Shown here piece after piece: positions 1,172 to 18,087 of a DNA stretch of 20,668 nt; within the stretch, counting starts at the first letter, position 1; every line of letters begins with the position of its first letter. The notes beneath the pieces are model-generated. The model worked only from the letters and a program-made list of their open reading frames with translations. It was not told the DNA's origin and searched no databases. Source of the stretch: a virus; the IMG/VR virus record IMGVR_UViG_3300025543_000277, positions 1-20,668 of that record; one strand, written 5' to 3'. A program made the position numbers and the translations under genes.

Positions 1172-1903
1172 ATGGCATACGATTATCTTGGACTAGTGAA
1201 CGATGTGTGTGGTCGAGTCAATGAGACTCCCCTCACGTCTGCTAACTTCAACAACGCTGTAGGGTTCTACTCCACAGCCAAAGAAGCTGTGAACTCTGCT
1301 ATTCGGGACATGAACCAACAGGCATTCCAGTGGCCCTTTAACCACACAGACTATGACGAGACACTGGTAGCTGGTCAATCACGCTATGCTTACCAAGCAG
1401 ACACCAAGGCTGTTGACTTCGATACATTCCGTATCCGTAGGAGCGACACCTTTAACAATAGTACTACTCACCTTAAGTTTATGGACTACGACGAGTACGT
1501 TGAACGGTTCATTGATGCTGAGTATGACTCAACTAACGAGAGTATCAGAGAGGTACCCAAGTATGTATTCCGAGCACCAAACCAAGAGTACGGCGTCTAC
1601 CCTGTCCCTAAAGAAGCCTACACACTTAGCTATGAGTATTACGCTCTTCCTACTGACCTGTCAGCTAATACTGATGTCCCCTCTGCCCCGGTAGCTTTTC
1701 GACATGTGGTTGTCGATGGAGCGATGTACTATGTCTATCACTTCCGTGGAGACACAGAGACTGCTGACCGTCTACAAGCTAAGTTCATCAACGGTATCGA
1801 GCGGATGAGAACTATCTACATCAACAACAACTACGACTATGTCCGTGATACACGGGTAGGTCAACGTAGTCCCTACGGTTCTAATACACTGAGGCTAACC
1901 TAA
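1172..1903 (+). CDS. Tail tubular protein A / adaptor (T7 gp11-like)
   Basis: A 243-residue protein with the N-terminal layout of short-tailed phage adaptor proteins: MAYDYLGLVNDVCGRVNE, then a helical section containing AIRDMNQQAFQWPFN, then a section rich in Tyr, Asp and Arg. In T7 the homologous gp11 forms a ring that joins the portal to the tail nozzle. The start ATG has an AAGGA ribosome site (1161-1165). Its TAA stop shares one base with the ATG of the next gene, the gp12-like nozzle, and this gp11-gp12 order is the standard one in T7-like phages. The assignment rests on remembered family sequence pattern, length and gene order. A generic virion protein of the same location is the alternative. 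Confidence 0.75.
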   Translation: MAYDYLGLVNDVCGRVNETPLTSANFNNAVGFYSTAKEAVNSAIRDMNQQAFQWPFNHTDYDETLVAGQSRYAYQADTKAVDFDTFRIRRSDTFNNSTTHLKFMDYDEYVERFIDAEYDSTNESIREVPKYVFRAPNQEYGVYPVPKEAYTLSYEYYALPTDLSANTDVPSAPVAFRHVVVDGAMYYVYHFRGDTETADRLQAKFINGIERMRTIYINNNYDYVRDTRVGQRSPYGSNTLRLT

Positions 1904-3867
1904 TGCCTACACGCTGGGAAACATTCCCTATTGAACTCTCTGGTGGTCTTGTCTCTAACCTGTCTCGATTGCAGCAGGGACTAAAGCAACCTGGGTCTGC
2001 AAGGGTACTGCAGAACTTCGAGCCATCCGTTAAGGGTGGCTATCGGCGTATTAATGGGTTTACTAAGTACGATGACGCTATTGTACCACCTTACGGTTCA
2101 CCACTAGTACAGGGTTCAGGACAGTCAGGAACAAGTGTTATTGTCTCCGGTCTCTACGAGACTCCTGTAGCAGGTGACACACTCACTGTAGCAGGGGTTA
2201 CAGGGACGTACACTGTCTCTGGTGTAACCTACTCAGCTACGAACAAGGAAGCCACTCTAACCATCACCCCAGCCCTGGACTCAAGCCCAGGTGACAAGGC
2301 GGTAGTAACCTTTACCTCAGGACAATCCCGTGTCGAGGGTATCTTCTACTCTGCTGCGGACACAGCTACCTTCGCCCTTCGTGGTGGAGCTATCTGGAAG
2401 AGCTCTGGTTCAGGTTGGACCTTGGTCAGTGTACAAGACCTAGGGTCACCTCTGGTTAATGGTGGTGGTCAGACAGGTACTACTATTGCTGTCGATGCTC
2501 TTGGAGCTGTACCAGCAGTTGGTGATACATTCAGTATCGCTGGGGTTGAGTTAGTCTACACAGTACTTACAGCACCAACTGTAACTGCTACTGCGGCTAC
2601 TGTCTCTATCTACCCAGCTTTGGATTCCTCACCTGCGGATAACGCAGCTATTACATTCCTTGGTTCTTCTCACACAGGTGGGACTAAGGCTAGGTTCACA
2701 CAGTTCAACTTCGACGGTACCTTTAAGACAGCTATGGTGGATAACGCCAACAACCCTGCTGTGTTCACTGGCAGTACGTACAAAGTTCTACAAGGGACAT
2801 CAGACATCACAGGTGCTTCTTATGTCGAAGAGTTCAAAGACTTCTTATTCTTCGCTACAGCAGACCTGGTAGCTTACACCGCTCCTTTCGATGAGGACGA
2901 CTTTACACCAGCTAATGGTGCTGGTAGCTACCGGCTACCGTCTAACTGCACAGGATTGATCACATTCAGAGAACAGCTAATCAACTTCTCCGAGACAGAC
3001 ATCAGACGCCTAACAGGTACTAGTGGAGCAGACTTCTCCCTTACATCTATTGCAGATGACCTTGGGTGTGTTAACGGTGATACCGTACAGGAGGTTGGTG
3101 GTGACGTACTCTTCCTAGGCCCTGACGGTGTACGCTTCCTAGGTGCTACTGAACGTATCGGTGACTTTAACTTGTCATTGGCTTCACGTCAGATTCAAAC
3201 AGACTTTACTTCTTTCATTGAAGTTTCTGCAGACTATTGCACGAACATCATCAGAGAGAAGAACCAGTACCGTATCTTTAAATATAAGACAGACACACTC
3301 AAGGGTGTTGCGCAAGGTTACATTGGTACACAATTCCTAGATCAGAACGGGCAGAGTGTTAACTGGAGCGCCACTAGAGGTATCAAAGCTTATAGAGCTG
3401 CATCAACCTATGTAGGGGATAGAGAGATTTCTTTGTTCTCTAACGATGATGAGTACGTTTACCGTATGGAGTCTGGCTCTACGTTTGACGGTGAGCCTAT
3501 TACATCAGAGTACTACACACCTTTCATGGCTGTTAACGACCCATCTATTAGGAAGACTGCGTACTCGGTAGATACCTACTTCGATCCTGAGGGGGCTACG
3601 ACAGGGGTGCTAACTCTTAAATACGACTTCAACGAACCTAAGAAGATTCAACCTAACGCTGTCACACTGGATGGTGGCGGTGCCTTCTCTACCTGGGGCA
3701 CTATGGTCTGGGGTTCAGGTTCTTATGGTGGTCTGCCAGACACGGTGCTGAAGAACAATGTTACAGGTTCGTTCTTCACAGTAAGCTTACAATACGAGTT
3801 CGATGGTGGGGAACCATTCGTACTAGACACAGCACTCTTAGAGTACTCAACAGAGGATAGAAAATAA
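1903..3867 (+). CDS. Tail tubular protein B / tail nozzle (T7 gp12-like)
   Basis: A 654-residue protein whose N-terminus (ETFPIELSGGLVSNLSRLQQG followed by a GSARVLQNFEPSVKGGYRRI-type segment) matches the pattern of podovirus nozzle proteins, which form the hexameric end of the tail tube. The fold expected is a beta-propeller platform, and later segments such as DDLGCVNGDTVQEVGGDVLF and GVRFLGATERIGDFN are typical of it. Two copies of a roughly 75-residue domain are inserted at about residues 65-140 and 181-254. It starts on an ATG that overlaps the adaptor stop by one base, with GAGG upstream, and ends on a TAA overlapping the tail-fibre ATG, so all three are translationally coupled. Length is somewhat below T7 gp12 (about 790 residues). 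Confidence 0.8.
   Translation: MPTRWETFPIELSGGLVSNLSRLQQGLKQPGSARVLQNFEPSVKGGYRRINGFTKYDDAIVPPYGSPLVQGSGQSGTSVIVSGLYETPVAGDTLTVAGVTGTYTVSGVTYSATNKEATLTITPALDSSPGDKAVVTFTSGQSRVEGIFYSAADTATFALRGGAIWKSSGSGWTLVSVQDLGSPLVNGGGQTGTTIAVDALGAVPAVGDTFSIAGVELVYTVLTAPTVTATAATVSIYPALDSSPADNAAITFLGSSHTGGTKARFTQFNFDGTFKTAMVDNANNPAVFTGSTYKVLQGTSDITGASYVEEFKDFLFFATADLVAYTAPFDEDDFTPANGAGSYRLPSNCTGLITFREQLINFSETDIRRLTGTSGADFSLTSIADDLGCVNGDTVQEVGGDVLFLGPDGVRFLGATERIGDFNLSLASRQIQTDFTSFIEVSADYCTNIIREKNQYRIFKYKTDTLKGVAQGYIGTQFLDQNGQSVNWSATRGIKAYRAASTYVGDREISLFSNDDEYVYRMESGSTFDGEPITSEYYTPFMAVNDPSIRKTAYSVDTYFDPEGATTGVLTLKYDFNEPKKIQPNAVTLDGGGAFSTWGTMVWGSGSYGGLPDTVLKNNVTGSFFTVSLQYEFDGGEPFVLDTALLEYSTEDRK
2095..2322 (+). 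repeat. First copy of duplicated domain in the nozzle protein
   Basis: Residues about 65-140 of the nozzle protein start with GSPLVQGSGQSGTSV and continue with VAGDTLTVAGVTGTYTV and ITPALDSSPGDKAVVTF. The same order of motifs recurs about 116 residues later. The pattern suggests a small Ig-like or beta-sandwich domain. Confidence 0.7.
2443..2664 (+). repeat. Second copy of duplicated domain in the nozzle protein
   Basis: Residues about 181-254 repeat the first copy: GSPLVNGGGQTGTTI, then VGDTFSIAGVELVYTV, then IYPALDSSPADNAAITF. The two copies are diverged at DNA level, so the duplication is not recent. Confidence 0.7.
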
Positions 3868-5621
3868 TGGGCCAAGGGTACATTCGTAACGACACAGCTA
3901 ACAACATTGCTGACGGTAACGTAGCAGATGCTGCGGATATTGACGGTGAGTTCGATGCTATTGTAGACGCTTTTCATGAGACTACAGGACACACGCACGG
4001 TGGTGGTGGTGCCGAAGGAGCTCCGATTACTGTCGTAGGGCCTACCCAGGAGTACCTAGGTGACGGCACATCCTTCTACCCTAAGTTAGATGCAACCTAC
4101 GACTTGGGTAAGATATCGTCTTCGTTTAACCTTGCTTACTTGGAAGGTCTTAACTTAGCTGGAACAACTATTACAGCTACCGCCACTGAACTTAACTACG
4201 TAGGTGGTGTTACTAGCGCCATTCAAACCCAGCTTAACAATAAGCAGCCGCTAGACTCTGACTTGACTGCCATTGCAGCTCTTGCTAAAACAGATGGTAA
4301 CTTTATTGTAGGTAACGGTACAGCTTGGGTGACCGAGTCCGGCGCTACTGTTCGTTCCTCCCTGGGCCTAGGCACTGCTGCAACAACGGCAAGCACAGAC
4401 TATGCCACGGCAGCACAAGGCTCTCTCGCAGATTCAGCCACCCAACCAGGAGACAACATATCGACCTTGGTCAACAACTCTAACTTTGTTGCTAGTGGTG
4501 CCAACATTTCTGTTTTTACTAACGACTCTAACTATATCTCCATCGACAGTACAACCCTTACAGGGACAACACAGAGTCTAAACGTAGGGTCTTTTAACCT
4601 TTTTGATGCAGCTATCACAGCGGACACAACACTTTCCTTCGCGTCTGTTCCGACAGAAGCTAGGTGGACTTACACAGTTACACCACCAAAGCTAGCGCCA
4701 GACCCAACCACCCTAAGCGGCCCTATAGCTTCGTCTGGTCTTGTAACGAACCCAGATACTCTGCACTTTACTTCAGACGGCAAACACCTCTTTACGTGTA
4801 AAACCGGTCTTGGGACTGTGTACTCCTTTCCCTTAGGGATTCCTTGGGATATTACGACTTTAAAAAGATTTGGATTGAGCTTCAACTCAAGCGGCTCAGC
4901 TACAAACCCACACGGTATCCAGGTTAAACCTGACGGTTCTCGAGCTTTTGTTGCTTGTGAGTCCACTGGAGCAATTTACCAATACGATATGAGCACAAAC
5001 TTTGATGCAAGCTCTATGTCATATAGCTCTATTTCTTTAACGTACAGCGGAGACACAGGAGCAGCTTCTGCAAGAGATATTGTAGTTAAACCTGATGGTC
5101 TTACACTTCTTTTGTTTACACTTGGCGATGTATGGGAGTACACTCTCTCTACAGCTTGGGACCTATCAACAGCTTCCTACTCAACAAACACCTTTGACTT
5201 TGGTGCTTTAGGACCTGATGCCCAGGACGTACATATGGACCCTGATGGAGATTGGATTTTAATGTTAGATGCAACCTCGGAAAGCCTGCACAAATTAACA
5301 CTTAGTACATCTTGGGATGTGTCCACTATTGCGTACAGCTCGAGTGACATAGGTTACTTCGGAAATGCAAATGAAACAGCCGGCTCTGGTTTATCGTTAA
5401 AAACTGGCGGTCAAGAGATTGTGTACTTTGCTGGTGAAACCCTAGACAGCGTTGAGTCCTACCACCTTAAGAATACATTTGATATAACACTACCATCTTC
5501 TGTAGCAGGTAAGTTGAGCACACCTATTTACTACCCGAAGAGAGGTACCTTTGAGTTCTACACAGCGGATGGTGGTACAACTGTAAAGCTTATTGGTGAG
5601 ACGTACACAGAGATAGAGTAA
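3867..5621 (+). CDS. Tail fibre with beta-propeller-like receptor-binding head
   Basis: A 584-residue modular fibre. Residues 1-60 (MGQGYIRNDTANNIADGN through GHTHGGGGAEGAP) match the virion-attachment end seen in many marine podovirus fibres. The H42-x-H44 pair could bind a metal in a trimer. Residues about 105-140 contain the common fibre motif TELNYVGGVTSAIQTQL, and residues 160-260 are a Ser/Thr/Asn-rich shaft. From about residue 290 there are five repeats spaced roughly 50 residues apart, each with a [VMF]-x-x-DG turn and a strand ending in [VI]-Y-x-[YF] or WEYTL, then W/F-D-[ILVA]-S/T. This is the pattern of a lactonase/WD-like beta-propeller. The head probably binds the host receptor. 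The start overlaps the nozzle stop by one base. Codon use in the propeller part differs from its neighbours. Confidence 0.8.
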   Translation: MGQGYIRNDTANNIADGNVADAADIDGEFDAIVDAFHETTGHTHGGGGAEGAPITVVGPTQEYLGDGTSFYPKLDATYDLGKISSSFNLAYLEGLNLAGTTITATATELNYVGGVTSAIQTQLNNKQPLDSDLTAIAALAKTDGNFIVGNGTAWVTESGATVRSSLGLGTAATTASTDYATAAQGSLADSATQPGDNISTLVNNSNFVASGANISVFTNDSNYISIDSTTLTGTTQSLNVGSFNLFDAAITADTTLSFASVPTEARWTYTVTPPKLAPDPTTLSGPIASSGLVTNPDTLHFTSDGKHLFTCKTGLGTVYSFPLGIPWDITTLKRFGLSFNSSGSATNPHGIQVKPDGSRAFVACESTGAIYQYDMSTNFDASSMSYSSISLTYSGDTGAASARDIVVKPDGLTLLLFTLGDVWEYTLSTAWDLSTASYSTNTFDFGALGPDAQDVHMDPDGDWILMLDATSESLHKLTLSTSWDVSTIAYSSSDIGYFGNANETAGSGLSLKTGGQEIVYFAGETLDSVESYHLKNTFDITLPSSVAGKLSTPIYYPKRGTFEFYTADGGTTVKLIGETYTEIE

Positions 5622-5649: not shown

Positions 5650-6012
5650 ATGAACCTGAGTAAATTTATAGAAGAGTTCAACTGGGAGTCTGATGGCTTT
5701 GTTGACAGTTACCACATCCTTAAAGAAGGTGAGAGTGGGGACTGTGATGACTTTGCATCTACCGTGAGCTACATCGAGAGTGGTTCGAGTAAGACTAGGA
5801 TGTTCTTTAATATCCTCACAGGTAAGCACAGGTTCTACTGGTGCCGTTCACCTCGGGGCGAAGCGCACGCTATCCTAAGGGTTAAGGGTAAAGGGTACAT
5901 TGATAACATCTTCCCGACCTACAGAAACAAACCTGAAGGACACACCAAAGTTGTGTACTTGTTCTGGGTCCCTTTCCTAAAACTACTCATTGGTATGATT
6001 GACAAGACCTGA
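5650..6012 (+). CDS. Transglutaminase-like cysteine-protease-fold protein, probable C-terminal membrane segment
   Basis: A 120-residue protein with the three landmarks of the bacterial transglutaminase-like cysteine proteinase (BTLCP) group in the right order: Cys32 in GESGDCDDFAS, His73 in GEAHAILRV, and Asp85 in KGYIDNIFP. The family fold is a small papain-like domain that cuts or transfers at amide bonds. Residues 101-117 (VVYLFWVPFLKLLIGMI) are hydrophobic and could anchor the C-terminus in a membrane. The start has a clear GTAAGGAG ribosome site. The stop TGA overlaps the ATG of the acyltransferase-like gene (TGATG), so the two are coupled. The motif match is seen in the sequence. The activity and target (virion protein, host envelope protein or peptidoglycan peptide) are inference. 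An amidase of related fold is the main alternative. Confidence 0.6.
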   Translation: MNLSKFIEEFNWESDGFVDSYHILKEGESGDCDDFASTVSYIESGSSKTRMFFNILTGKHRFYWCRSPRGEAHAILRVKGKGYIDNIFPTYRNKPEGHTKVVYLFWVPFLKLLIGMIDKT

Positions 6013-6431
6013 TGATCGTTGACTACAACAAAGCTTTAGATGACGCCAGGTTCTTGTTCCTAAGAAGTGAACACCACAAGAACTTTGATTCTAATGAAAT
6101 CTACTCTTACCTAGTTTTACCTTGCAAAAAGAATGCAATCAGGTTATACTACCGTGAGGGTAAACCTATTGGTCTTGTCACTTGGTGCTGGTTAACACCG
6201 GAGAAGGCTAAAGACTTTGTAAACTTTGAGTGTCTGCTTCTAGAGTCCGACTACGAGAAGAGAGAAGGTACTGAGCTTTGGGGCCTAGACTTTATTACTC
6301 CATACGGTGATGCACGTAAGGTCTTCTCATTGATCAAAGAAGAGTACAAGAATGTTTATGGTGAAGAAACCAAAGTTAAATGGCGGAGAGCCAAGGACCC
6401 CTTGAAAGTACATGAGAGAAAACTATGTTAA
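6012..6431 (+). CDS. RTX-toxin-activating lysine acyltransferase-like protein (HlyC family)
   Basis: A 139-residue protein resembling HlyC/ApxC, the enzymes that move a fatty acyl chain from acyl carrier protein to lysines of RTX toxins. SEHHKNF (residues 19-25) lines up with the HlyC catalytic histidine segment SPLHRNW, placing His22 against HlyC His23. KPIGLVTWCWLT (51-62) matches the RPVAYCSWA strand. ELWGLDFITPYGD (88-100) matches WFIDWIAPFGD, placing Asp93 against catalytic Asp92. VKWRRAKDPLKVHERKL corresponds to the HlyC VDPKTHVGKVSEF strand. The protein is about 30 residues shorter than HlyC at the C-terminus. It starts on the TGATG overlap with the protease-like gene and its last codons overlap the start of the downstream ejection gene. 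No RTX repeat protein is visible nearby, so the substrate is unknown and may be a virion protein. Confidence 0.7.
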   Translation: MIVDYNKALDDARFLFLRSEHHKNFDSNEIYSYLVLPCKKNAIRLYYREGKPIGLVTWCWLTPEKAKDFVNFECLLLESDYEKREGTELWGLDFITPYGDARKVFSLIKEEYKNVYGEETKVKWRRAKDPLKVHERKLC

Positions 6432-8014
6432 ATAACATGAAATGGAAAAACCCAGGGATCACCTTTATCTCCGGTGGTGGTGGTTCTGGTGGTAGTACTG
6501 GTTGGCCTAGTGGTGGTTGGCCTAGTGGTGGTTCTGGTGGTTCTACTACAACGACCACACCTACAGAGACGCCTGTCTTTACCTCCAACATGGAACAGTT
6601 AGCTGGTCAAACATTCCCTACTCAAGAAGCACTAGATGCTGCTGAGGGCGCTATCAATACACAGACCACTATCACAGCTAACCAAACACAGTCTGATGCT
6701 ATTGCTGCCGATCCTAACGCTGCTCTTACTCAGGGTCAAGCTAACATTGCTAACTGGGAATCACAGATCGCTAACCTTACTACACAGGTTGGAGAAGACC
6801 CAGGTCTACAGGCTGAGATTGATCGACTAGCTGGTCTTATCCAAGGTGAACAGACTAAGGTTACACAAGCACAGAGGCTCTCCAGTGTAGCTACAGGTAG
6901 CGCACAGAGGGACATGGCTGCTAATGCTATCTCTAACCCTAGCGCCCTCATCGAACAAGCACAGGTGGAGACAACGCAGGTAACCCCTGATCAACTGATT
7001 GCTGCTGGTACAGGTGATGCCGGTGCTGCTGCTCAGGCTGGTGTGTCCACTGTCCAAGATACAGCTACTGCACAGACCCCTGCTAGACAGGAAGCTACAA
7101 CCTACGATGCAGCTACTATCAACGATCAGGTACAGAACGTAACAGACGACCTTCAGGCTGCTACTGCACAAGCCTCAGATAAGGCCACAGTACGTGGTCA
7201 GTTGGCTATGCTGATGGAAGACTTCGAGGGTGGTGAGACTCCTCCTTGGGCCTCAGGACCTATGCGTCAGGCTATGCAGATGATGCAGTCCCGTGGTATG
7301 GGTGCCTCCAGTATTGCTGGTGCTGCTGTCGTACAGGCTGCTATGGAGAGTGCTATCAGCATTGCTTCACAGGATGCTAACATTAACGCACAGTTCGAGA
7401 TGAAGAACCTCGACAATGCACAACAGACTACAATCTTTAAGACACAGCAACGACTAGCTGGTTTGTTCTCTGATCAAGCTGCAGTCAATGCTTCTGCTCA
7501 GTTTAACGCTACTAGTGAGAACCAAACTAACCAGTTCTTCTCCAACCTAGAGCAACAGTCCTCACAGTTTAATGCTAACCAGATAAACGCTATTCGTCAG
7601 TTCAACTCTGGACAGACAAACGCTGTATCACAGTTCAACACACAGATGCGTAACCAGAGGGATCAGTTCAACGCACAGAACTCTCTTGTCATCTCTCAGG
7701 CTAATGCTCAGTGGCGTCAGTCTATTGCTACAACAGCTACAGCTACACAGAACATGGCTAACATGGAGTACACTAAGAATGCTAACGCAATCACAGGTGC
7801 TGCTCTAGACCAGTTGTGGCAGCGTGAGCGTGACCTTATGGATTATGCATTTACTTCTTCAGAGAGTTCACTAGACAGAGCCAACGCACTGGTTGTACAA
7901 CGTCTAGCTATCTCGGCTAGTGCTGAGGCAGCAAAGATTATACAGAAAGCTAATGAAGACGCTACTAAGGGTGCCTTCTGGGGTGAAGTCTTCACAAGTA
8001 TTGCAGGGATTTAA
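6425..8014 (+). CDS. DNA-ejection / internal virion protein with Gly-rich head and hendecad repeats (gp14-like position)
   Basis: A 529-residue protein in the place of T7 gp14. The N-terminus (MLNNMKWKNPGITFISG) leads into a Gly/Ser/Trp/Pro linker (residues about 16-46) containing GWPSG twice, followed by a long region rich in Ala, Gln and Thr. A central section has many Met residues (about 270-310), typical of membrane-active ejection proteins. Residues 359-435 form seven exact 11-residue repeats beginning with Q-[FA]-[NF]. This predicts a right-handed coiled coil. The C-terminus (AKIIQKANEDATKGAFWGEVF) is an amphipathic helix. The start at 6425 overlaps the acyltransferase stop; an in-frame ATG at 6437 is possible but has no better ribosome site. 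A role in the channel through the cell envelope is inferred from position and composition. Confidence 0.65.
   Translation: MLNNMKWKNPGITFISGGGGSGGSTGWPSGGWPSGGSGGSTTTTTPTETPVFTSNMEQLAGQTFPTQEALDAAEGAINTQTTITANQTQSDAIAADPNAALTQGQANIANWESQIANLTTQVGEDPGLQAEIDRLAGLIQGEQTKVTQAQRLSSVATGSAQRDMAANAISNPSALIEQAQVETTQVTPDQLIAAGTGDAGAAAQAGVSTVQDTATAQTPARQEATTYDAATINDQVQNVTDDLQAATAQASDKATVRGQLAMLMEDFEGGETPPWASGPMRQAMQMMQSRGMGASSIAGAAVVQAAMESAISIASQDANINAQFEMKNLDNAQQTTIFKTQQRLAGLFSDQAAVNASAQFNATSENQTNQFFSNLEQQSSQFNANQINAIRQFNSGQTNAVSQFNTQMRNQRDQFNAQNSLVISQANAQWRQSIATTATATQNMANMEYTKNANAITGAALDQLWQRERDLMDYAFTSSESSLDRANALVVQRLAISASAEAAKIIQKANEDATKGAFWGEVFTSIAGI
6500..6529 (+). repeat. 15-base tandem repeat encoding GWPSG
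   Basis: The unit ggttggcctagtggt occurs twice in direct tandem, encoding GWPSG twice within the Gly-rich linker of the ejection protein. The surrounding ggtggt and ggttct units are degenerate extensions. Slippage of such a tract could change linker length. Confidence 0.75.
7499..7729 (+). repeat. Seven consecutive 11-residue (33-base) hendecad repeats
   Basis: The units are QFNATSENQTN, QFFSNLEQQSS, QFNANQINAIR, QFNSGQTNAVS, QFNTQMRNQRD, QFNAQNSLVIS and QANAQWRQSIA, each exactly 11 residues. The regular Q-F-N at the start of each unit gives a hendecad phase. The preceding residues can be read in the same period with one three-residue shift. DNA identity between units is low, so the repeat is maintained at protein level. 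Confidence 0.85.
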
Positions 8015-16317: not shown

Positions 16318-18087
16318 TTACTCGCAAGAACGAATTAACTGTCCTGAGTTCTCATCGAACTTAAGTTCACAGGCACCACCTTCCTCGATCTGTCCCTCCT
16401 CTGTAGCAGTAAGCACAGAGCCAGTCACATCGTTAGGACGGTACGTAGTACAGCCCTTACAGCCCATGTCGTAGGCATCCATGTAGACCTGCTTGAAGTC
16501 ATCGAAGTTGATGTCCTCTGGTACGTTGATAGTCTTAGAGATAGAGCTATCAATCCACCGCTGTGCTGCAGCTTGCATACGGACGTGAGCACTAGGCTCC
16601 AGTGTCTGAGCAGTAACGAAGCTAGCAGGTAGCTTAACACCTGTGTTGTCCCGCTTCCACTTGGTTACACCGTAGTCTTCTACAACCTGTGTGATCTTAG
16701 AGCCATCCTTCTGCATAACCTTACGCTCATAGCTGAGTGCAAAGATAGGTTCGATACCCGAGGATACGTTACCTGCATACAGGGAGATAGTTCCTGTAGG
16801 TGCAATGGATGTGAGTAAGGCGTTACGAATACCGTGCTCTGCTACCTGTTCACGGATGTGCTTAGGCATACGCTTCATGTTACCTGAGGCTAGGAAACCC
16901 TCAGCATCAAACATTGGGAAGGCACCCTTCTCCTTAGCAAGATCAATAGAAGCCTGATAGGACGTAACAGCAATGAACTTCATCACCTTGTCTGTCCACT
17001 TAACAGCTTCGTCTGAACCGTATACGACACCACCAAGAGCCAGTGCGTCAGCTAGACCTGTGACACCTAGGCCAATACGACGTTTATTCTCAGCTTCTTC
17101 CTGTTGCTGTGGCAGTGGGAACTTAGAGACATCGACCACGTTGTCCATCATACGTACAGCCAGACGGATAGTAGATTCCAGGCTACGCCAGTTGATAGAG
17201 TAGTCATCCTGTAGCATGGCTACCATGTTGATAGAGCCTAACAGACAGGCACCATAGGGTGGTAGAGGTTGCTCACCGCATGGGTTGGTAGCAGCAATGG
17301 TCTCACAGTAGTTGAGGTTGTTCATGTCGTTGATACGATCAATGAAGATAACCCCAGGCTCAGCGTAGTGGTAGGTGGAGGACATGATCTTGTCCCACAA
17401 TGACTTAGCATTGATTGTCTTGTACACCTTACCATCAAACTTAAGGTCGAACTTAAGGTTGTTCTTCACTGCCCGCATGAACTCATCAGTGATAAGCACA
17501 GACATGTTGAACATACGTAGACGTAATGGGTCACGTTTAGCCTCAATGAACTTCTCTACGTCTGGGTGGTCACACCGCATGGTAGCCATCATAGCGCCAC
17601 GGCGTGTACCAGCAGACATAATGGTACGACATGATGCATCCCATACATCCATGAAGGACAGAGGACCAGAGCTATCAGAGGCCACACCCTTAACCTCAGC
17701 ACCCTGTGGGCGTAGGGTAGAGAAGTCATAACCGATACCACCACCTTGCTGCATGGTAAGGACAGCTTCTTTAAGACCGTCATAGATACCAGGAAGACTA
17801 TCATCAATAGTCCCCATTACAAAGCAGTTGAAGAGGGTTACCTTACGATCACCTGTACCAGCACCTGCATTGATACGTCCAGCAGGGATAAACTTGAAGG
17901 ACTCAAGGGCTTCATAGAAAGCCTTACCCCATGTCTCTGGGTCCTCCTCACAGGAAGCTAGGTGATTAGCGACACGCTCCCATGTGTCGTGTACTGTCAG
18001 GTCAATGGGTGTGCCATCGTACTCTTTCAGTCTATATTTCATGTCCCACATTTCTTCTGCAATGGGTGTTCGGAAGATGTTACTCAT
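16318..18087 (-). CDS. nrdJ: Adenosylcobalamin-dependent (class II) ribonucleotide reductase
   Basis: A 589-residue reductase that makes deoxyribonucleotides for phage DNA. Key residues are visible: Cys88 (LFNCFV) and Cys281 (PPYGACLLGSIN) as the active-site redox pair, and Asn268, Cys270 and Glu272 in TNPCGEQP as the radical site. The 11-residue gap between thiyl Cys and second redox Cys matches NrdJ. QQGGGIGYDFSTLRP, GLGVTGLADALALGG, APTGTISL and KGCTTYRPN are further NrdJ signatures. There is no N-terminal ATP cone, and the C-terminus lacks the usual CxxC tail, ending in RSCE with another Cys at 572 (CEL). It is shorter than typical bacterial NrdJ of about 700 residues or more. Class II enzymes need B12 but no oxygen. 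The ribosome site is AAAGGAAA. No separate small subunit is expected or seen. Confidence 0.92.
   Translation of the reverse strand: MSNIFRTPIAEEMWDMKYRLKEYDGTPIDLTVHDTWERVANHLASCEEDPETWGKAFYEALESFKFIPAGRINAGAGTGDRKVTLFNCFVMGTIDDSLPGIYDGLKEAVLTMQQGGGIGYDFSTLRPQGAEVKGVASDSSGPLSFMDVWDASCRTIMSAGTRRGAMMATMRCDHPDVEKFIEAKRDPLRLRMFNMSVLITDEFMRAVKNNLKFDLKFDGKVYKTINAKSLWDKIMSSTYHYAEPGVIFIDRINDMNNLNYCETIAATNPCGEQPLPPYGACLLGSINMVAMLQDDYSINWRSLESTIRLAVRMMDNVVDVSKFPLPQQQEEAENKRRIGLGVTGLADALALGGVVYGSDEAVKWTDKVMKFIAVTSYQASIDLAKEKGAFPMFDAEGFLASGNMKRMPKHIREQVAEHGIRNALLTSIAPTGTISLYAGNVSSGIEPIFALSYERKVMQKDGSKITQVVEDYGVTKWKRDNTGVKLPASFVTAQTLEPSAHVRMQAAAQRWIDSSISKTINVPEDINFDDFKQVYMDAYDMGCKGCTTYRPNDVTGSVLTATEEGQIEEGGACELKFDENSGQLIRSCE

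Follow-up and report, generated by a model that had tools for sequence, protein, structure and literature searches.

A predicted five-bladed beta-propeller nested in the C-terminal sandwich of a putative podophage tail fibre

What does the tail fibre of this virus carry at its far end, and did that part come from elsewhere? Which cells a phage can attach to depends largely on the tips of its tail fibres, and in uncultured marine phages most of these heads lack annotation. The window, meaning the whole stretch of DNA analysed, is a 20,668-base virus record, within which we studied an open reading frame at 3867..5621 (+ strand) encoding a tail fibre of 584 aa. A preliminary description had seen five repeats of about 50 residues with PDG/SDG turns in the last half of this fibre, taken them for a beta-propeller-like head with its own codon usage at 4734-5621, and proposed that a receptor-binding propeller was swapped in from another source and sets the host range.

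Two tail genes precede the fibre on the + strand. The first, at 1172..1903, encodes the tail adaptor (Pfam SU10_adaptor, E = 4e-20; phrog_10775, tail protein). The second, directly 5′ of the fibre at 1903..3867, probably encodes a tail nozzle of the tubular B type (phrog_5107, E = 5e-45), a name given from gene order and relatives; along its whole length, its product shares 46% identity with the tail structure protein of phage CRP-345. The N-terminus of the fibre matches the annotated tail fibre proteins of phages CRP-603, CRP-345 and CRP-207. Its anchor (aa 1-95, 3867..4151) is kept in all relatives that have this tail backbone, at 51-89% identity in those with other heads, and is followed by a shaft (aa 96-228, 4152..4550) inside which identity to the relatives ends. 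A conserved N-terminal anchor and a gene directly after the nozzle, both found here, characterize the nozzle-attached fibre of HMO-2011/CRP-type podophages. The tail and internal genes of the window resemble those of phages CRP-345, CRP-603, CRP-207, CRP-9 and HMO-2011, and its host is likely a member of the Rhodobacteraceae.

The repeats proved genuine, with a period of 52: their anchor positions fall at aa 319, 371, 423, 475 and 530 (nt 4821-5454), at spacings of 52, 52, 52 and 55, and the ungapped self-match of the fibre at lag 52 scores 151, against 47 for the best of 1000 shuffles. The expectation of a bladed fold was likewise borne out by structure prediction and PDB matches. Searching with the head, phmmer matched propellers in the PDB, and a 37-sequence profile matched the YVTN propeller 1l0q (E = 4e-17). 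AlphaFold2, run on aa 229-584 with the 37-sequence alignment, gave a model (pLDDT 87.2, pTM 0.82) in which the strands fall into five groups of about four. Its PDB matches in Foldseek were again propellers, and its top viral match was a hypothetical protein of Lentibacter phage vB_LenP_ICBM2. The fixed insert size (about 260 aa) and the five blades are compatible with a closed ring, judging by lengths and predicted strands. On this modelling, aa ~276-535 (4692..5471) is a five-bladed beta-propeller; the span first proposed overlaps it, beginning slightly late and taking in half of a further C-terminal domain.

That domain is a beta-sandwich, and the propeller sits in one of its loops, between a first half at aa 229-274 (4551..4688) and a second at aa 536-584 (5472..5618). 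In our alignment A2 the propeller is flanked on both sides by conserved sequence, with the motif LDxSTGNYFxxTLTANTTxxFxNxPxG on the N-terminal side and TxPxSVxWxxGxAP...FxTxDGGTTYxG on the C-terminal side, and the model places strands in the first half. A search of 7005 ORFs for the two halves yielded 80 sandwiches, whose slots hold either 0-24 aa (36 sandwiches) or 250-289 aa (44 sandwiches), with no intermediate size among the 80. The empty sandwich modelled alone gave pLDDT 89.6 and pTM 0.81, and a profile built from empty sandwiches only matches the window fibre at aa 229-260 and 540-572. Since the AlphaFold2 model of the tip is a monomer and comes without pairwise error estimates, contact between the two halves is argued from the folded empty homologue and from sequence. 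The stop codon follows 3-9 residues after the sandwich in nearly all cases.

A mixed alignment (A1) had diverged too far to serve as seed for a scan of the collection. A scan that took the sandwich subtype of the window, and not the propeller, as its seed found 46 closed domains (the window's own gene accounts for two of them), every one with a propeller of 256-282 aa. It found no empty member of this subtype, in which the cassette may be fixed; one candidate for such an empty slot, L394, was rejected for a reading-frame break in its first blade. Among phage records, the joined flanks of the window matched only ICBM2, where the slot is filled. The PDB holds no convincing match to the empty form (best E 0.096, to TSP4 of CBA120), and Pfam gave one weak match only on 32 sandwich members. 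A limited word search of the literature found no description of the sandwich or of an empty or filled slot, and the nested cassette with its two states appears to be undescribed.

We think it likely that the 584-aa protein is the nozzle-attached fibre of a marine HMO-2011/CRP-type podophage, and that its sandwich tip with the inserted propeller binds, most likely, the host surface. The anchor would bind the nozzle or the adaptor, and the shaft (aa ~96-228) would project the tip (aa 229-584) outward from a fibre that presumably assembles as a trimer. The sandwich would cap the fibre and its loop would display the propeller at the fibre end, as suggested by the place of the propeller in a loop of the C-terminal sandwich. 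There the propeller would contact a host surface structure, probably a glycan. By analogy, binding is the most likely role, as propellers are known in receptor-binding proteins or candidates for them, such as phi11 Gp45, PRD1 P2 and phiKZ gp131C (PMC4901313).

An enzyme domain that goes beyond binding and degrades host capsule or exopolysaccharide, either as a surface-polymer hydrolase or in the manner of a lactonase, would be another use for such a fold, and the nearest curated families are indeed propeller enzymes (Lactonase, SGL); the endosialidases of phages K1F and phi92 also carry trimeric propellers (PMC4901313). We consider it unlikely, because the family scores fall below the curated cut-off (15.9 against 21.7 bits for PF10282), the positions conserved among the blades seem to serve structure (DG turns, YxLSTAWDxST), and at the sequence level no catalytic motif was recognised in the fibre. 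The fibre was not assigned to PF10282, a 7-bladed lactonase family, on account of this score and of its five blades versus seven.

The fibre might also be a secondary or decoration fibre, with some other gene of the genome encoding the host-determining adhesin: the window covers 20.7 kb and is a fragment, the ORF at 2-1156, 5′ of the adaptor, encodes a phage-family protein without assigned function (phrog_16509), and ICBM2 has several fibre-related genes. This seems improbable to us, as an adsorption fibre usually follows right behind the nozzle and combines a conserved anchor with a variable tip, the pattern seen here.

Across the fibre, two contigs match the window at about 99.6% identity. 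In the other relatives by nozzle or internal proteins that were examined, the common part is the anchor or the anchor plus shaft, and neither sandwich nor propeller is detectable in their fibres. The common part runs from aa 1-95 up to aa 1-191 in L173-L178. Relative L007 is conserved over 2508-4062 and then again from 6009. Relative L006 has 92% nucleotide identity over 3867-4420 and is unrelated beyond, and where adaptor and nozzle matches could be detected in it, most are at about 65%; because the 92% island lies amid these, the anchor and shaft appear to have moved as a unit. This island, of 554 bases, opens exactly at the fibre start codon.

The last shared residue thus lies between aa 95 and 191, varying with the relative, so that identity breaks at about 4.15-4.44 kb. 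The sharp break anticipated at 4.6-4.75 kb is not seen, and a serial head swap at that place is rejected by the positions of the breaks. That whole heads have been exchanged on this backbone is well supported, because the closest isolate head is found in a phage of another family with no other structural gene in common. As for the proposal that the propeller was swapped in, the exchange itself holds (apart from the two near-identical contigs, no backbone relative examined has the head, and ICBM2 has the closest one among isolates), while the boundary and the codon argument fall away, and the nesting as a cassette had been missed. Selection on host range presumably lies behind such exchange. 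Fibre-tip mosaicism with variable break positions is known (PMC10386132), as are fibres common to distant phage families (PMC10579305) and HMO-2011/cobavirus recombination (PMC8528129); in Cobavirus, the tail-fibre region is described as variable, most of its proteins being confined to a single phage (PMC6775973).

The isolate with the closest head, ICBM2 (Zobellviridae, Cobavirinae), belongs to a different group, the cobaviruses, and it too infects Rhodobacteraceae. Its hypothetical protein gp51 carries a five-repeat propeller nested in a sandwich of the same subtype, and is 35% identical to the fibre over aa 230-578. It differs in being encoded by a 404-aa gene with a short, unlike N-terminus, not next to the nozzle and in another phage family. 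Besides the head (35%), ICBM2 and the window have in common a PhoH-like gene (63%) and, weakly, a ribonucleotide reductase, and no other structural gene. At 16318-18087 (- strand) the window encodes an adenosylcobalamin (B12)-dependent ribonucleotide reductase (NrdJ_Z, E = 3e-181).

The codon argument had been that phenylalanine codons after about 4680 are 12 TTT and 3 TTC, against 4 and 9 in the adaptor gene, and these hand counts are exact. The bias is real: 12/3 in the head compares with 86/154 over the window's other examined genes (Fisher p = 0.0015), and nowhere in the window does synonymous codon usage deviate more than in the head region and just after it. It starts upstream of the head, however, and spans the whole fibre. 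The first 271 codons of the fibre already have Phe 7/3 (p = 0.65 versus the head), a permutation search for a codon breakpoint inside the fibre found none (p = 0.77), and, taken as a whole, the fibre departs from the adaptor and nozzle combined (p = 1.5e-5). With no change-point at 4680 or elsewhere in the gene, codon composition was dropped as a sign of a swap of the head only.

At a finer level, the cassette itself moves between sandwiches in related loci, as read from DNA alignments. An empty 121-aa ORF (L287:6861-7223) is collinear with a filled 387-aa ORF (L114:2365-3525). Nucleotide identity is 97% on the near side of a net insert of about 800 bp and 86% beyond it, and the neighbouring sequence is conserved too; the difference may be a gain or a loss of the cassette. 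In a second pair (L315:4983-6056 and L309:304-1374) the propellers are mostly 91-98% identical in nucleotides (87-89% in two 15-residue bins) and the sandwich halves only 58-80% and 60-67%, the shifts falling at both junctions. Near-identical propellers in diverged sandwiches indicate that the cassette was itself exchanged. Over 666 pairs, sandwich and propeller identity are weakly correlated (rho 0.19); we claim exchange from the DNA-level breaks alone, because some high propeller identities between unlike sandwiches may reflect nothing more than consensus-like blades.

Blades within one protein are on average 44% identical and up to 71% (37 propellers compared), from which we infer that blades are also renewed. 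That renewal by repeat amplification in a fast-evolving propeller, with the sandwich held by constraint, accounts for everything without cassette exchange is quite doubtful: identities of up to 71% and the lift that consensus-like blades can give to unrelated propellers speak for it, but L315 and L309 have the reverse pattern and L287 and L114 differ by an entire insert. Returning to exchange of the cassette, the blades of the window are 22% identical, the most diverged among the 37 (57% in ICBM2 gp51), which fits long in-place divergence as well as import.

The same blades occur in cellular genome collections, in proteins of SAR11, archaea, Patescibacteria and Reichenbachiella. No sandwich half was detectable in these proteins; their loci were retrieved via the propeller, and the result shows no more than that propellers exist there without the sandwich. 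Proteins of about 700 aa with related blades recur in Pelagibacteraceae, sometimes two close together (L343-L373, mostly SAR11 genomes), and could have a link to whatever supplied the phage cassette. We offer tentatively, at somewhat less than even confidence, the wider view that the sandwich is a general socket at phage tail-fibre tips, in which five-bladed propellers related to repeats in marine bacterial and archaeal proteins are plugged in, removed and exchanged whole, independently of the rest of the fibre, as a second and finer level of head swapping.

Parts of this arrangement resemble known systems. Gp45 of Staphylococcus phage phi11 is a proven receptor-binding protein with a five-bladed propeller, four strands per blade, on a stem (PMC4901313). 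Gp45 and our fibre both have a five-bladed propeller, and the adsorption role of the fibre is suggested by gene position; in Gp45 the propeller stands in series between the stem and C-terminal tower domains, whereas that of the fibre is nested, and the host of phi11 is Gram-positive. No sequence match was seen between the two. In SU10/T7-type nozzles the chain runs from a beta-sandwich platform into a propeller and out again (PMC9509320), an analogy for the nesting only, as this is a different gene that lines the DNA channel, with seven blades in SU10; no test used here found kinship with the head. Roseobacter phages CRP-2, CRP-9, CRP-13 and CRP-738, which have related tail genes, encode proteins with the repeat motif of our fibre, but these are of about 1100-1250 aa with 8-13 repeats counted, and their N-terminus lacks the fibre anchor. 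The tail fibre gp140 of phage phi92 and its relatives have a C-terminal sandwich of the same family (about 36% identity) with the slot empty, in a short protein of 158 aa.

A recognisable end-cap with an empty or filled slot makes such heads findable and classifiable, and near-orthologous genes with and without the propeller are material for testing propeller binding. Exchange becomes visible at one domain loop, not only over a whole fibre end.

Downstream of the fibre, a 120-aa gene (5650..6012, + strand) has no match in Pfam, PHROG or NCBIfam and is present only in contigs near-identical to the window. In L007 its region is replaced along with the fibre, conservation resuming only at 6009, and it is possibly a fibre-specific partner.

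Positions 6012-6431, after the fibre and ahead of the internal virion proteins, encode an HlyC-like acyltransferase (RTX toxin acyltransferase family; PF02794, E = 2e-13), a predicted protein that may modify some virion protein. It is kept in L093 (96%), L007 and L176; a putative acyltransferase also lies at a similar location in CRP-738. Contig 3300021389_000190 (L093/L095) has internal virion genes at about 90% from 6013 and adaptor, nozzle and fibre at about 65-72%, a difference that points to exchange of the whole tail-tip block at 6013. Contig L005 is 99.6% identical up to 6518 and, after an unaligned gap, only 78% from 6689, a sharp break that adjoins the glycine-rich start of the gene at 6425-8014.
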